Origin: Sulfobacillus benefaciens
GTDB lineage: Bacteria > Bacillota > Sulfobacillia > Sulfobacillales > Sulfobacillaceae
Length of the DNA: 64,000 nt
Direction of reading: 5' to 3'
NCBI GenBank assembly: GCA_003023725.1
Contig: PXYT01000011.1
Span: 27,041 to 91,040, forward strand
Numbering within the stretch: the stretch's first letter is position 1; every line of letters begins with the position of its first letter. The translations under genes and the position numbers were made by a program. Of the stretch, positions 32,777 to 39,521 are shown piece after piece. The notes beneath the pieces were generated by a model. That model was given only the letters and a program-made list of their open reading frames with translations. It ran no database searches and was not told where the DNA came from.

Positions 32777-32892
32777 CCTAAGAAGATTCTGCGTAAAGGT
32801 GAGAAGATTGCCAAGCAGGAATTTTGCGTTTTTTTATCGAATAGCGTAATAAAATACTCGACAGAAGATCGAACTGTCGACTTAAAGAAAGG

Positions 32893-34032
32893 ATGAATGG
32901 TGTGGGACGTCCACGGACCACCTCAACCCCTTCTTGGTCGGTAATGACCCTTTCCCAGGTTACGGGATTGCCGGTTTCGGTAATTTGGTCGGATTTGAAG
33001 AACGGCATGTTGTCTGGGGTAAGTGTTCAAGGCAAAACCATCATACGCCTGGAAGATCTCTCGTCGGCAAAGCGGGATCAGTACCGTAATGTCGCGGGCA
33101 ACTTAGGGTACCTATCCCGTGAGCGTGAACCGGGGGAGAATTCGAGAGTCGATCCGGGAATTCGCCCGCCTTTTTCAACCTCGTGGAGAAGCCAGCATGC
33201 TCATGTCTACCGCGGCGAAACTGTCAAGATCTTAGCCAGTGACTTGACCCGTCCGGATCGGCTGCTTTCCCGCATCACCGCCCCCTCTTTGTCTCCGGGA
33301 ATTATTGCTCTGAGCGGGTTTTCCGGCCCCAAAGGAGCCTGGCCGGTTTTTGTGATTGGGCCTCAGGCGGAACTGGGTCAAGATCTCATCTCCATTCGCC
33401 TACTGCCCCAAATTGTGTTTGCCTACCCCGTCGCCTTGCAGTCGGCCAGGCGTATTCTTCTGGAAATACAGGAAAGCCCGAGCTACTTGAGTAATATCGT
33501 GGCGCAGTTAATATTGGATTATGGGACGGCAGTTATTGCGGAACTCGCTAAGGAGGCCTGGTTTCTCTACCGCAACCGCTCAGGAAAAGTCAAGACGTCA
33601 CTTGTTTTCTGCCAAGATGGGAGGCCTCGTACGGTTGGGGGGGTGTTCTTTAGCTTGATTAAGGCCAAAGGTTACTGGAATCCGCAGACGGGCAGTGGGT
33701 CGTCGGAGGCAGTCATGAAAGGTGATGTCCGCCCAATATCCTCACAAATGCCTGAGTGGGTGGAGAATAACCGTGAGCACGATGATTATCCGGGTCACGG
33801 CGTCAAGATGGAGGTGCCCCTCGACCAGATTTTCGTTCCCGCGGTCTTTGAGATGCATCCGCCCCGTCCGGAAAAGATCCGTAAAGCCTTGGAAAAGCAT
33901 TCGCAATGGCCGCTTTTGGTTAAACAGACAGACTGTGATGACAAAAGACCCTATCTTCTTTTGGACGGATATACTCGGTACCTGGCGGCGAAGCAGAATA
34001 ACCAGGAAAGTGTCTGGATTCACATCATTTAG
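32893..34032 (+). CDS. Putative PHAX-type RNA-binding plus ParB-like domain protein
   Basis: A 379-residue protein of unusual make-up. Residues 18-70 may be a small helix-turn-helix or excisionase-like module (LSQVTGLPVSVIWSDLKNG). Residues 192-262 contain a helical segment ending in GRPRTVGGVFFSLIKA, close to the RRTPGGVFF(Y/F)L signature of the PHAX RNA-binding domain. Residues 305-375 contain IFVPAVFEMHPPRPEKI and LLLDGYTRYLAAK, which resemble the ParB/sulfiredoxin-like fold (LLDGxxR). A regulatory RNA- or DNA-binding role is likely, but none is shown. GTG at 32902 is better spaced from AAAGGA and may be the true start. It lies after the sugar operon and before a chromate transporter gene. 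Confidence 0.55.
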   Translation: MNGVGRPRTTSTPSWSVMTLSQVTGLPVSVIWSDLKNGMLSGVSVQGKTIIRLEDLSSAKRDQYRNVAGNLGYLSREREPGENSRVDPGIRPPFSTSWRSQHAHVYRGETVKILASDLTRPDRLLSRITAPSLSPGIIALSGFSGPKGAWPVFVIGPQAELGQDLISIRLLPQIVFAYPVALQSARRILLEIQESPSYLSNIVAQLILDYGTAVIAELAKEAWFLYRNRSGKVKTSLVFCQDGRPRTVGGVFFSLIKAKGYWNPQTGSGSSEAVMKGDVRPISSQMPEWVENNREHDDYPGHGVKMEVPLDQIFVPAVFEMHPPRPEKIRKALEKHSQWPLLVKQTDCDDKRPYLLLDGYTRYLAAKQNNQESVWIHII

Positions 34033-34061: not shown

Positions 34062-34595
34062 TTGGCTAAGTGGCTACACTTGTTTTGGGGATTCTTCAAA
34101 GTTGGCATCTTAGGTTACGGGGGAGGGCCCGGGTCCATCTCTTTGATTCAATCCATTTCGGTCAATGGCTACCATTGGATGGACAACACGAAATTTGCGG
34201 AACTGCTGGCAATTGGCAACGCCTTACCCGGCCCCATTGCTACAAAACTCGCGGCAGCCATAGGGTGGCAGGTGGGGGGAGTCATAGGAGTTGTAAGCGC
34301 TGTGTTGGGCGTTGTGCTTCCTTCCCTGGTGTTAATGCTGGGTTTGTATCAACTTCTTTTGGCGCACCAATCAAATCCGTATGTGATAGGTCTCATTCGC
34401 GGCGTAAAACCGATTGTGGTGGTGTTGCTGGTATTGTTGGTTATTGACTTTATTCCTGGCGCCTTTCCCGCGAATCGCTACGTCGTGCCGCTCATCATTT
34501 TTGTTATGGGCCTGGTCGCTATTAAAGGTTTCAGGATTTCTCCGCTTTGGGTGATTATTGGCTCAATGATTTCAGGCGCCCTCTTTCTCCGGTGA
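34062..34595 (+). CDS. Half-size chromate transporter (ChrA/CHR family)
   Basis: A 177-residue membrane protein with one CHR domain of about five to six helices. The family motifs are visible: FFKVGILGYGGGPGSISLI near residue 10, and LLAIGNALPGPIATKLAAAIGWQVGG near 48, which contains the GNxLPGP(I/V)A(T/S)K signature. The start is TTG after GAGGGGG. Half-size CHR proteins usually come in adjacent pairs that work as heterodimers; no partner frame is present on either side. Chromate efflux is the family's best known role, but the substrate here is unknown. Confidence 0.8.
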   Translation: MAKWLHLFWGFFKVGILGYGGGPGSISLIQSISVNGYHWMDNTKFAELLAIGNALPGPIATKLAAAIGWQVGGVIGVVSAVLGVVLPSLVLMLGLYQLLLAHQSNPYVIGLIRGVKPIVVVLLVLLVIDFIPGAFPANRYVVPLIIFVMGLVAIKGFRISPLWVIIGSMISGALFLR

Positions 34596-35190
34596 CGAGG
34601 CGCAAGCCGAACCCAATGCCGGGAGCGTTGCGGCTGCCGGTTTTCCGGACTGGTCCCCCGGGACGCCTGGTTGCCGCTGATTTCTTTGACAAAGCGCTGC
34701 CTTGTGTGACAAGTTCTCCCGCGTGGAAAATTATGATAGTCATCCCGCCTTCCCATATTGGATTATTATGCATTTCGACGAATGTTGAAACCAGAGGGAC
34801 ATTGGCAGGGAGTCTTTGCATGATCCGTGGAAGACGTCCGGAAAGGACATGCTCCATCTTGCGGTTCCCGCCATTTTGCATTTTGATGAGAAATGATTTA
34901 GGGTGTAATATGAGGAGTAAGAGTCGGGGGGCGGATCCCAACTGAAAGTGGTACGGCTGTGTGAATGAACAGTGGTATGTGTCGATGAAATTGTAGGGCG
35001 TAACATCTTCATTAGTGCATAAAATTATCAAACATTTGGTTGCCAGGCTAATATCGGATGATTCTGGCTGTCGGAATAATCGAGAGTATGATATACTACA
35101 CTCAACCCGAAAGCACCTTTCCTTCGAAATTCTCCTATCCACTTATCTCTGCCGGTCTCTGTTTTCGTTCCCATGAACGGAGGGATGACC
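34596..35190. other. Intergenic stretch without a supported gene
   Basis: Nearly 600 bases lie between the chromate transporter and yhbH. A 195-codon open frame on the minus strand (34555-35142) has no ribosome site and no recognisable motif, and it overlaps the transporter gene. The end near yhbH is A/T-rich and contains TATACTA at 35092-35098, which matches six of seven bases of a SigF/SigG -10 (CATACTA). Sporulation-sigma control of the following operon would be expected from its family, but this single element is weak evidence. Confidence 0.4.
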
Positions 35191-36231
35191 ATGGATCTCT
35201 ATGACCACAAAGGTGAACTGGACCGCCAGTGGTATTTGAGGAAATTAAGCCAAGCCATCAAGGCCAGATTGCCAGAGTTGATTACACAGGAAGCTGTGAT
35301 GGGAAGCGCACCGGATAAACGTATCCGGATAGCGGTCCGAAAGTTGGAAGAACCCGATTTTCGTTATCAACCTCAAGGCTACCAGGGTCAGGGTAGTGGC
35401 TCCGGTCCAGGGCAGGATGGCGAGGACGATGTTGTCTGGATAGAAATGACAACAGAAGAAATCATGGATTTGCTGCTCGAAGATCTGAAGCTGCCCAGAC
35501 TCGATGACAAGCCCCGGGGTGTATTGCACGGAGAAGAGGACCGTTACGACGATGTCGCCACCAATGGGCCGTGGGCCAATATCGACAAACGGCGGAGTTT
35601 GTACCAGGCGGCAAAAGAAGGCCGCGACTATTTAAAGGAAGACGATTTGCGCTACCGTACTTGGCGCACTTACCCTAAGCCGGTCACGGCGGCCGTGATT
35701 ACACTGGTTCGTGACGCCTCCGGGTCGATGGACGAATCAAAGCGCTACCTGTCAAAGTCGGCAGCCTGGTGGCTGGTGCAATGGATTCGCCGTCAGTACC
35801 GTTATGCCGAAATCCGTTATTTTCTGCACACAACTGTCCCGGTAGAAGTGGACGAAAAGGACTTTTTCAACCGGGAAATTACCGGCGGAACAGCTATTTT
35901 GTCGACCTATCAAACGATTTTGCAACTATGGGATCACGATTTTCCTCATGACGACTGGAATCGCTATTTATTGCACTTCTCCGACGGAGACATCTGGTCA
36001 GACTACGGTCGGGAACTGATAGAAATTATACGAACACTCTTGTCGACGTCATCCTTGCTTGGGTATTTTGAAGTCGAGGGTCATAAAGGAGTTTCGCCTC
36101 TTTGGTCTCTCTTTCGAAAAAGCGCGGAAGTGAATGGTCATTTCCACCCGGCCATGCGTATGGCAAAAATTGACAGCAAGGAGCATATTCTTCCGGCTAT
36201 TCGCACTGTGATCGACGGTCACGATATGTAA
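35191..36231 (+). CDS. yhbH: YhbH/YeaH-type DUF444 protein
   Basis: A 346-residue DUF444 protein. The N-terminal third is charged, with a Gly/Gln-rich linker (residues 65-85). The C-terminal part is a von Willebrand A-like domain with a MIDAS motif DASGSM near residue 175 and HFSDGDIW near 262. In Bacillus, YhbH is made under SigE and is needed for sporulation; its partner genes are prkA and spoVR, exactly as here. The start at 35191 follows GGAGGGATGACC. The next gene begins 37 bases after its stop. Confidence 0.9.
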   Translation: MDLYDHKGELDRQWYLRKLSQAIKARLPELITQEAVMGSAPDKRIRIAVRKLEEPDFRYQPQGYQGQGSGSGPGQDGEDDVVWIEMTTEEIMDLLLEDLKLPRLDDKPRGVLHGEEDRYDDVATNGPWANIDKRRSLYQAAKEGRDYLKEDDLRYRTWRTYPKPVTAAVITLVRDASGSMDESKRYLSKSAAWWLVQWIRRQYRYAEIRYFLHTTVPVEVDEKDFFNREITGGTAILSTYQTILQLWDHDFPHDDWNRYLLHFSDGDIWSDYGRELIEIIRTLLSTSSLLGYFEVEGHKGVSPLWSLFRKSAEVNGHFHPAMRMAKIDSKEHILPAIRTVIDGHDM

Positions 36232-36268
36232 GCTTGTCCGTTATGGCAAGGACCTGGAGGTGATATCA

Positions 36269-37618
36269 ATGGTCCACGGAACGTTAGACGACTGGGTTCA
36301 CGAAATGGATCAATTAGTGCATGCTCATGGACTAATTCCCCTGCCCACCGAGTTCCATCTGGTGTCGGACGAAGATATCTATACGTTATCTTCGTATTTT
36401 GTACCCGGTCGGTACCGTCACTGGACGCATGGAGAACGGTATTGGATGGCCAAGCAACGGGATGAGCAGGGAATGGGACGAATTTATGAGCTTGTCGTCA
36501 ATGGCGATCCGGCCCTAGCTTATCTTTTGGATAAGAATGCGGATGCTTACAACGTGTTGGTCATAGGCCACGTTCTTGGCCATACGGATTTTTTCGCCCG
36601 TAACCAGTATCTTAGTGCCGTTAGGCGCGCTAACGTCGGAATGTGGTTTAGGGAGCATGCCCAGTGGATAGAAGATTTGCACCGGCAACGCAGTTTTTCC
36701 CGGGTGGAAAAGCTGATTGATGCCGCTCATACCCTGGCTCAACTCGTGGATCCTTACTACCGGGCTCCCGAGTTCTTACAAGTGCCGTATAAACAACAAA
36801 ACCCGCGGCAAGAAAAGTCGTTTGACTGGGTTAGGGATTTGTACGAGTCGAAGCCGCTGGATTCGGAAGATGACGCAAGTTATGTGCCGTCTTTCAAGAT
36901 CTGGCCTTACACCCAGGATGTCTTGGCTTTGGTGGCCGATTTTGGGCACCTGGCCGAGGAAGAACGCATGGCCCTGAGAATGTTGCGGGAAGAAATGTTG
37001 TATTTTCTGCCTCAGGCTCGGACGAAATTCATGAATGAAGGATGGGCGACCTTCTGGCATGTTCGTCTCATCCGGGAATTTTCCCAGTGGGACGATCAGG
37101 ATCATATTGAAGCCATGCGCATGCATGCGTTGGTCACCCAGAGTCGAAACTTTTTTAATCCGTACTATTTCGGATGGACCTTATGGGAGTTGCTTTATGA
37201 GTTGCACGGTCTCGAAACCTGTTTTCAGATCGTGGCGGATCAAACGGACCTTCAATGGATTAACCAGTGGATCACCCCGAATCTGGTCAAGCTGGCCCAG
37301 AACAAGAATGTGTGGCCTTTGGAACGGCCTGTGGATCCCGACGATCCGAGTAAAGGGACAGAGTATTATCCTGTCGAGGATCTTATGCACGATGTCCAGC
37401 GGGTTTTTCAGCCGGACACACCGGAGATATTTGTGGAACAAATTGATGCCCAAAGCCATAGGCTGGATTTGATCTATCATGGCGACAGGCCCCTTCATAA
37501 GGACTATACGCAGGATGTTTTGAATGCGATTGCATATTTGTGGGGCGGAGATGTGATGCTGACCAGCGCACACAAAATCTGGTATGGGAACGAAGCCGAC
37601 TGGAGAAGGAGGGCTTAA
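36269..37618 (+). CDS. spoVR: SpoVR-family protein
   Basis: A 449-residue soluble SpoVR-family protein. Typical motifs include PTEFHLVSDEDIYTLSSY near the N terminus, YNVLVIGHVLGHTDFFARN near residue 93, KFMNEGWATFWHVRLIRE near 253, and NPYYFGWTLWELL near 293. SpoVR affects spore cortex formation in Bacillus; its biochemistry is unsettled. The ATG at 36269 is chosen over a GTG at 36260 because GGAGGTGAT is then well spaced. The prkA ATG lies one base after its TAA. Confidence 0.9.
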   Translation: MVHGTLDDWVHEMDQLVHAHGLIPLPTEFHLVSDEDIYTLSSYFVPGRYRHWTHGERYWMAKQRDEQGMGRIYELVVNGDPALAYLLDKNADAYNVLVIGHVLGHTDFFARNQYLSAVRRANVGMWFREHAQWIEDLHRQRSFSRVEKLIDAAHTLAQLVDPYYRAPEFLQVPYKQQNPRQEKSFDWVRDLYESKPLDSEDDASYVPSFKIWPYTQDVLALVADFGHLAEEERMALRMLREEMLYFLPQARTKFMNEGWATFWHVRLIREFSQWDDQDHIEAMRMHALVTQSRNFFNPYYFGWTLWELLYELHGLETCFQIVADQTDLQWINQWITPNLVKLAQNKNVWPLERPVDPDDPSKGTEYYPVEDLMHDVQRVFQPDTPEIFVEQIDAQSHRLDLIYHGDRPLHKDYTQDVLNAIAYLWGGDVMLTSAHKIWYGNEADWRRRA

Positions 37619-37619
37619 A

Positions 37620-39521
37620 ATGGCACGATTCGATACAGATTGGTTAAGCAAGCATCAACCTCCCCAAGGAGCGTGGAATTGGGAGGGAACGCTTGCGGAT
37701 TACCTCATAAAAGTCCAGCAAACGCCATCGATTGCCGACTTAGCCCATGCCCGTATCTACCGGATGATTATGTCGCATGGGATTGAACGGCTTGAGACGC
37801 AGGATGTTCCACGTTATAACTTCTTTAGTAAGGATATTTTTGGTATCGATGAGACGATTAATGAAATTGTGGAGTATTTCGCGGCTGCGGCTCGGGGGAT
37901 GGACATCAGGCGCCGGATTCTTCTGATGATGGGAAGCCCCGGAACCGGAAAATCGACAATCACCTCGATTTTGAAAAAGGGATTGGAGGAATACTCACGA
38001 ACTGATGAAGGGGCTCTGTACGCCATAGGCTTCTGTCCTCAGCAGGAAGAACCGCTTCACTTGCTGCCGGAAGCGGCTCGACGTGAATTTATGCAGGAAA
38101 CGGGGGCCACTATTGAAGGAGATTTGTGTCCCTATTGCCAGTGGGTGGTTGATCACGAATACCAGGGGCGCTTGCAAGAAGTGCCGGTGAAACGGGTCCT
38201 GGTTTCGGAATCCCGCCGGATTGGAATCGGCACCTTCGCTCCGTCGGACAGCAAAGTACAGGACATCAGCGAACTGGTGGGGTCGATGGATTTGTCGACG
38301 ATTTCCCGCTACGGTTCGGAATCGGATCCCAGAGCATACCGGTTTGATGGTGCGTTTAACGCGGCTAACCGGGGCATTATGGAATTCATTGAGATGTTAA
38401 AGGCGCAGCCGGACTTTTTACACGGGCTGTTAACCTTGGCTCAGGAAAGAAAAATCAAGGTGGGCCGTTTCGGACTGTTTGACGCCGATGAAGCCATCAT
38501 CGCGCATACCAATGAAAATGAATTTGAACGTTTCGTCAGCAACAAAGCTTACGAGGCCCTGCACAACCGTGTGCTATTGATTAAAGTCCCCTATAACCTG
38601 ACCGTAACGCAAGAAATACGGACCTATGAAAAGATGATGAATCTTGGCGGCCAGACATTAGGGAAACACATTGCCCCTAATACACTGAAGGTGGCGGCTA
38701 TGTTTGGTGTGGGCACAAGACTGGTGCGTGACGCCAAGTTCTCGATCAAGGAGAAGCTGACGTTATACGACGGCAAAGAACTGCCGGATGTTCAACAACG
38801 GGAAATCAACCGCGTCAGGGAACTTGCCCGCAAACAGGGGGAGGGTTTTCAGGGAATCTCCCCGCGTCATATTCTCGATGCTCTGTCTTATGCCATGGCC
38901 AGCGACAAAGAACCTTGCGTAACGCCGACAGCCATGCTTCGCGCCATTCGGGAGAGTTTTGAACAGCATATCACCCAGGTCAAGAACCAGGACCTGCTGG
39001 AAGCCTTGAAAGCTACTCATGAACTGTACGATGAGGCAGCGAAGAATGAAATCCAAAGAGCCTTTGTGGATTCGTTCCAGGATGCCGCGCAGTTACTGTA
39101 CGACAATTATCTGGAACATGCTGAAGCCCGGATTATGCACGCGACGGTGAAAGACCCGGTCACCGGCGAGGAAGTCGAACCCAACGAAAAGATTTTGCAG
39201 GATCTGGAAAAAGCCTTGGGGATTAGCGACGCGGCCGCCACGGCATTTCGTCAAGAGATGGTTAACAAGTCCGGAGCCATGGCCAGACGCGGACAGACCC
39301 TTGGCTGGGATGCCCATCCCAAAATGAAGGAAGCCATTGAGAAGAAGTTGTTTGCGGACGTGGCGAATTTGGTCAAGGTTACCACATCCACCAAAGTCTT
39401 GAATGATCAGCAGAAGAACCGAGTGATGGAAGTGAAGCGGCGGCTTATCGATGATATGGGTTATTGCGAGCATTGCAGCCAGGAACTTCTGGACTATGTT
39501 GGATACTTGTTAACCAAATAA
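37620..39521 (+). CDS. prkA: PrkA serine protein kinase / AAA protein
   Basis: A 633-residue PrkA protein. An AAA domain in the N-terminal half has Walker A GSPGTGKST near residue 104, then a treble of Cys in LCPYCQWVV near 171 typical of the family, and ends with FGVGTRLV. The C-terminal third is the PrkA kinase-like domain. In Bacillus PrkA is a SigE-controlled protein that supports sporulation, described both as a kinase and as an AAA protease. The start at 37620 follows GGAGGG. It closes the operon. A very strong terminator lies 94 bases downstream. Confidence 0.92.
   Translation: MARFDTDWLSKHQPPQGAWNWEGTLADYLIKVQQTPSIADLAHARIYRMIMSHGIERLETQDVPRYNFFSKDIFGIDETINEIVEYFAAAARGMDIRRRILLMMGSPGTGKSTITSILKKGLEEYSRTDEGALYAIGFCPQQEEPLHLLPEAARREFMQETGATIEGDLCPYCQWVVDHEYQGRLQEVPVKRVLVSESRRIGIGTFAPSDSKVQDISELVGSMDLSTISRYGSESDPRAYRFDGAFNAANRGIMEFIEMLKAQPDFLHGLLTLAQERKIKVGRFGLFDADEAIIAHTNENEFERFVSNKAYEALHNRVLLIKVPYNLTVTQEIRTYEKMMNLGGQTLGKHIAPNTLKVAAMFGVGTRLVRDAKFSIKEKLTLYDGKELPDVQQREINRVRELARKQGEGFQGISPRHILDALSYAMASDKEPCVTPTAMLRAIRESFEQHITQVKNQDLLEALKATHELYDEAAKNEIQRAFVDSFQDAAQLLYDNYLEHAEARIMHATVKDPVTGEEVEPNEKILQDLEKALGISDAAATAFRQEMVNKSGAMARRGQTLGWDAHPKMKEAIEKKLFADVANLVKVTTSTKVLNDQQKNRVMEVKRRLIDDMGYCEHCSQELLDYVGYLLTK

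Follow-up and report, generated by a model that had tools for sequence, protein, structure and literature searches.

The window analysed here, a stretch of 64,000 nucleotides from Sulfobacillus benefaciens, contains a gene whose product appears to join a PHAX-type RNA-binding domain to a sulfiredoxin/ParB-like domain. The gene and its features are as follows.

32893..34032, plus strand: PHAX/ParB-like fusion gene, 379 amino acids from ATG 32893 or 376 from GTG 32902
32887..32892, plus strand: predicted ribosome-binding site GAAAGG, called from the sequence, best pairing with the GTG at 32902
32893..33132, plus strand: residues 1-80, the most conserved stretch (ortholog alignment A1), putatively like a MerR/excisionase-type helix-turn-helix by eye
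33133..33417, plus strand: residues 81-175, middle region with conserved SPGxIALSGF and RLLPQIV (ortholog alignment A1)
33418..33687, plus strand: predicted PHAX-type RNA-binding domain of four helices, residues ~176-265 (hhalign against 39 bacterial PHAX domains; match to 2w4s_A)
33616..33675, plus strand: PHAX signature DGRPRTVGGVFFSLIKAKGY, residues 242-261 (Pfam PF10258 match at 240-261; conserved in all orthologs)
33802..34029, plus strand: predicted sulfiredoxin/ParB-N-like domain with a DGYxRYL motif, residues 304-379, ending the protein (Foldseek, VIA-align, hhalign to paralogs)

Upstream lie genes for a UDP-GlcNAc 2-epimerase, a DegT aminotransferase and a sugar transferase; downstream are a half-size chromate transporter (34062-34595), which has no adjacent second half in this genome, and then yhbH (DUF444), spoVR and prkA. 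The yhbH-spoVR-prkA cluster (window 35173-39521) is 88-96% identical within the genus. An Rfam scan placed no known structured RNA near the fusion gene, and no convincing promoter or terminator was seen around it. Elsewhere in the window, positions 395-633 match a group II intron domain (RF02005, E 2e-29).

The open reading frame at 32893-34032 is a genuine gene and evolves under purifying selection. Searches of 61 genomes recovered four full-length orthologs, all from other members of the same genus and 59-72% identical, and codon comparison of these orthologs, read only where dS is unsaturated, gave dN/dS of about 0.09-0.12. When 398 genomes of the phylum were searched with a profile, no further full-length relatives emerged, and full-protein matches were found neither in plasmids or phages nor, by peptide patterns, in genome contigs. 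GAAAGG directly adjoins ATG 32893 (spacing 0) and stands 9 bases from GTG 32902. Because of this spacing, and because the GTG is invariant in the orthologs, GTG 32902 (376 amino acids), not the ATG, may be the true start. The Glu-Arg codons 5' of the ATG are also kept in the orthologs.

Gene order is preserved in all four ortholog-bearing genomes, with neighbours that are mostly more conserved than the fusion gene itself. In two congeners (G001 and G005), chrA directly follows the sugar transferase, with about 85-120 bases between the two ORFs and the fusion gene absent. Since it is missing between the same neighbours, the fusion gene is a dispensable accessory that was acquired or lost in one piece and lies outside both the sugar operon and the chromate transporter, and the neighbours are no guide to its function. 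The initial annotation was right to remark that the context suggests no clear role.

That annotation had also proposed a PHAX domain, on the strength of DGRPRTVGGVFFSLIKA, which begins at residue 242 of the fusion protein. The RRTxGGVFF-type signature is present in the fusion protein and all orthologs as RT[VI]GG[VI]FFxL[IV]K, with an invariant core of R246, T247, G249, G250, F252, F253, L255 and K257. PF10258 was the only finding of Pfam in the fusion protein (residues 240-261, E 0.0021), and at 18.4 bits it falls below the cut-off of 25; Viperin, PLD_C, DRAT and Gp34 matches lay far under their cut-offs and were set aside. The same PHAX model matches all five orthologs when the window protein is counted among them (best E 1.4e-4). 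In the 398 genomes of the phylum, PF10258 at E<=0.001 matched the fusion gene and one other ORF only (G345/L013), which sits in a phage-tail-like cluster, carries an internal stop and was judged a chance match.

Comparison of profiles gave a clearer answer than the single sequence. The bacterial PHAX set was reached from a human PHAX sequence, confirmed by a PDB match, by way of Cryptosporidium PHAX in the PDB and a Herpetosiphon plasmid protein (Pfam PHAX E 6e-13), which led to 42 bacterial loci. A profile of 39 bacterial PHAX domains, run against 3,427 ORFs from the window and related loci, reported nothing beyond the fusion gene and its orthologs (the strongest ortholog at E 2.1e-6, the window protein at 0.0011). 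In hhalign, residues 186-260 aligned to positions 2-70 of these domains with a score of 50.9 (E 7e-8); 100 column shuffles reached no more than 19.2, and the reversed profile 16.8. An LQE/IQE start and a mid-domain Gly are common to the window protein, the Herpetosiphon protein and eukaryotic PHAX. The region carries no more than a mild positive charge (net +5).

The predicted fold points the same way. An AlphaFold2 model built from the five orthologs alone, with no PHAX rows in the alignment, places helices at residues 172-191, 196-210, 212-227 and 248-258, with pLDDT of about 54-76 in ten-residue blocks across 180-260 and a whole-model mean of 44.5. VIA-align superposed residues 178-270 on Cryptosporidium PHAX 2w4s_A at Z 8.7 (rmsd 2.6, 80 of 86 residues aligned), compared with Z of 5.2 or less for the next, unrelated helical domains; the tool cautions that matches between helical bundles may lack specificity when Z is under about 13. 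As VIA-align was run only on the chains supplied by Foldseek, the absence of human PHAX 2xc7 from the list is uninformative, and the best 50 Foldseek matches listed were nearly all to the C-terminal domain. Enriching the alignment to model the window protein a second time was abandoned after MAFFT put ParB-like fragments in the PHAX region. Structure prediction, at moderate pLDDT, returned the PHAX-like helical fold, and together with the profile-profile result it bears out the proposed domain, for which the Pfam score of the single sequence would have been insufficient. These data support residues ~176-265 as a divergent PHAX RNA-binding domain, like PF10258 (human 2xc7, Cryptosporidium 2w4s) in predicted fold, signature, LQE start and mid-domain Gly, and unlike it in its bacterial host, its sub-threshold score and an insertion of about 7-9 residues before the signature. 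It differs from eukaryotic PHAX in having no NES and no CBC-binding or cap-binding parts.

The 42 bacterial loci with PHAX domains are mostly from Chloroflexota. Pfam detects PHAX in Chloroflexota, in Myxococcota and in one Acidobacteria genome, several matches lying far above the cut-off, and its PHAX model matched all 34 of the bacterial PHAX proteins scanned, with RRM_1 in 8 of the 34 and a cold-shock domain (CSD) in 2. A C-terminal domain encoded at about 20 of the 42 loci shares homology (hhalign E 1.9e-10) with the one at the N terminus of a second family, the A2 paralogs. That N-terminal domain is predicted, in a high-confidence model, to adopt an OB fold like those of SSB and PriB, with Z up to 10.2, and in the paralogs of the window genome and of related genomes it is followed by the same ParB-like domain as in the fusion protein. 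The pairwise combinations are thus PHAX-OB in Chloroflexota, OB-ParB-like in this bacterial family and PHAX-ParB-like in this genus. The last was seen only in this genus among the 42 loci and the genomes searched, in the window protein and its four syntenic orthologs. The other bacterial PHAX proteins showed no ParB-like domain, and one unrelated ORF in their loci reached E 0.01. The Chloroflexota PHAX proteins (for example Haur_5073 on pHAU01; L015-L056) resemble the fusion protein in carrying a PHAX-type domain in a modular protein, and differ in their partners, which are an OB-like domain, RRM or CSD. To the extent of these searches, PHAX joined to a ParB/sulfiredoxin-like domain is a new architecture.

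Several further arrangements were noted in these sets. An N-terminal RRM-like region precedes the PHAX domain in L029, L031, L032, L036, L038, L043-L045, L048, L049 and L055, all from Chloroflexota. Loci L008-L012 and L071-L074 encode two-domain proteins in which an SSB/PriB-type OB domain, with no Pfam match, is followed by a sulfiredoxin/ParB-like domain. A relative's 268-residue ORF (L093) has a ParB-like DGYxxYL motif and then what looks by eye like an HNH-nuclease region. A 141-kb viral contig encodes a PHAX domain in a 175-residue protein (L097:4944-5471; bacterial PHAX profile E ~8e-21). A few genes downstream of the Herpetosiphon plasmid PHAX gene (L014:5917-6912) comes a CRISPR-cas operon (Cst1, DevR, Cas5).

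The C-terminal assignment of the initial annotation, a ParB/sulfiredoxin-like fold near LLLDGYTRYLAAK, which begins at about residue 355, is strongly supported. The predicted domain matches sulfiredoxin 6ky4 at Z 10.9 and ParB/Noc at Z 9.8-10.2 in VIA-align, and its fold also matches KorB, SerK and SbnI, with ParB, Noc, SerK and SbnI at Z 7-10 (Foldseek, VIA-align). Its profile aligns with that of the A2 paralogs at E 7e-13 (hhalign), and these paralogs match Pfam ParB_N at E 2e-7. The paralogs (L010 and others) share this C-terminal domain and carry the OB domain instead of PHAX. Within the domain, D358, G359, Y360, R362, Y363 and L364 are invariant in the fusion protein and its four orthologs.

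On balance, we infer that the fusion protein is a non-enzymatic, single-stranded-RNA-binding accessory regulator, an inference that covers RNA binding, loss of catalysis and regulatory role alike. RNA binding is suggested by the homology to PHAX and, indirectly, by the company that the domain keeps, with RRM, CSD and OB partners. By analogy with eukaryotic PHAX, the PHAX-type domain would contact RNA with no strong sequence specificity. The C-terminal domain would have lost the known catalytic residues of its superfamily and would serve as a ligand-sensing or protein-docking module, and the N-terminal region may contribute DNA binding. The protein would be a dispensable accessory in some species of one genus, like the bacterial PHAX-OB, PHAX-RRM and PHAX-CSD proteins.

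An alternative that we regard as unlikely, and still worth serious consideration, is that a repurposed PHAX-like domain binds DNA or protein, the fusion being a DNA-binding transcription regulator with an N-terminal helix-turn-helix and a ParB-like sensor, and no part for RNA. The high conservation and helix-turn-helix-like appearance of residues 1-80 would fit such a regulator, as would the usual occurrence of ParB-like domains in DNA-binding proteins and the SSB/PriB-like OB domain of the paralogs, a type known from single-stranded-DNA binders. However, the helix-turn-helix that had been proposed there was not confirmed: Pfam gave no relevant match for residues 1-80 and the AlphaFold2 pLDDT in that region was below 32. 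Moreover, the PHAX signature is intact, and the RRM and CSD fusions of other bacterial PHAX domains favour RNA. The middle region (residues 81-175) has no Pfam match and an unreliable AlphaFold2 model, and hhalign did not support it as a diverged OB domain.

It is rather improbable that the C-terminal domain works as a nucleotide-dependent enzyme of the ParB/SerK/sulfiredoxin kind (a CTPase, serine kinase or ATP-dependent reductase) brought to RNA by PHAX. The fold matches sulfiredoxin, SerK, SbnI and ParB at Z 7-11, and the DG and Arg of DGYxRY, which are invariant, recur in the DGVHR of SbnI, although the alignment is weak and the fusion protein does not keep the His; with the superfamily (PF02195) it shares the fold and the DGxxR-type motif of SerK/SbnI. 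Against catalysis, DGYxRYL occupies the site of GERRxR in ParB and of GGCHR in sulfiredoxin, and in both the fusion protein and its orthologs LDGYxRY stands in place of GGCHR, so that the catalytic Cys is absent. The ENLQR box, helix-turn-helix and dimer domain of ParB are likewise lacking, as the protein stops at residue 379, ahead of the downstream DNA-binding region of ParB. At the position aligned, weakly, with what we take to be the catalytic Glu of SbnI, the fusion protein and orthologs have A, V, R or K. With no sulfiredoxin Cys, no GERRxR and nothing past the last strand, neither CTP switching of the ParB type nor sulfiredoxin chemistry is likely, and the nucleotide-hydrolysing partner domain suggested earlier is not supported; a ligand-binding role is possible.

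Finally, it is very improbable that the GG motif is convergent and that residues 176-265 form an unrelated helical domain with no functional link to PHAX, for although some 20 residues carry most of the sequence score, and the upstream part without the motif scores a non-significant 15.7 (200 shuffles reached up to 19.2), that part keeps its register (186-221 to 2-37), the shared LQE/IQE start and Gly agree, and a model made without PHAX sequences still matched 2w4s over nearly the whole domain.

In a 2011 comparative study of eukaryotic genomes, PHAX was judged an animal or opisthokont innovation (PMC3032688). Within the human export complex, PHAX binds CBC and CRM1 through parts distinct from its RNA-binding domain, and the cryo-EM structure does not show that domain (PMC12350170). 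Searches of the open-access literature for PHAX with bacteria, prokaryotes, Chloroflexi or ParB found no studies of bacterial PHAX proteins. It is tempting to speculate, though we think it doubtful, that a bacterial PHAX-type family swaps PHAX, SSB-like OB, RRM, CSD and ParB/sulfiredoxin-like modules, that the snRNA-export domain of eukaryotes arose from this pool, and that the ParB-like domain of this genus lets a nucleotide or amino-acid ligand switch RNA binding. Starting from the fusion gene, one reaches bacterial PHAX proteins that have been little described and are assembled from modules of nucleic-acid-binding type. If these proteins bind RNA, they would represent an unstudied bacterial RNA-binding module, and it would become possible to test where a spliceosomal-RNA export factor came from.
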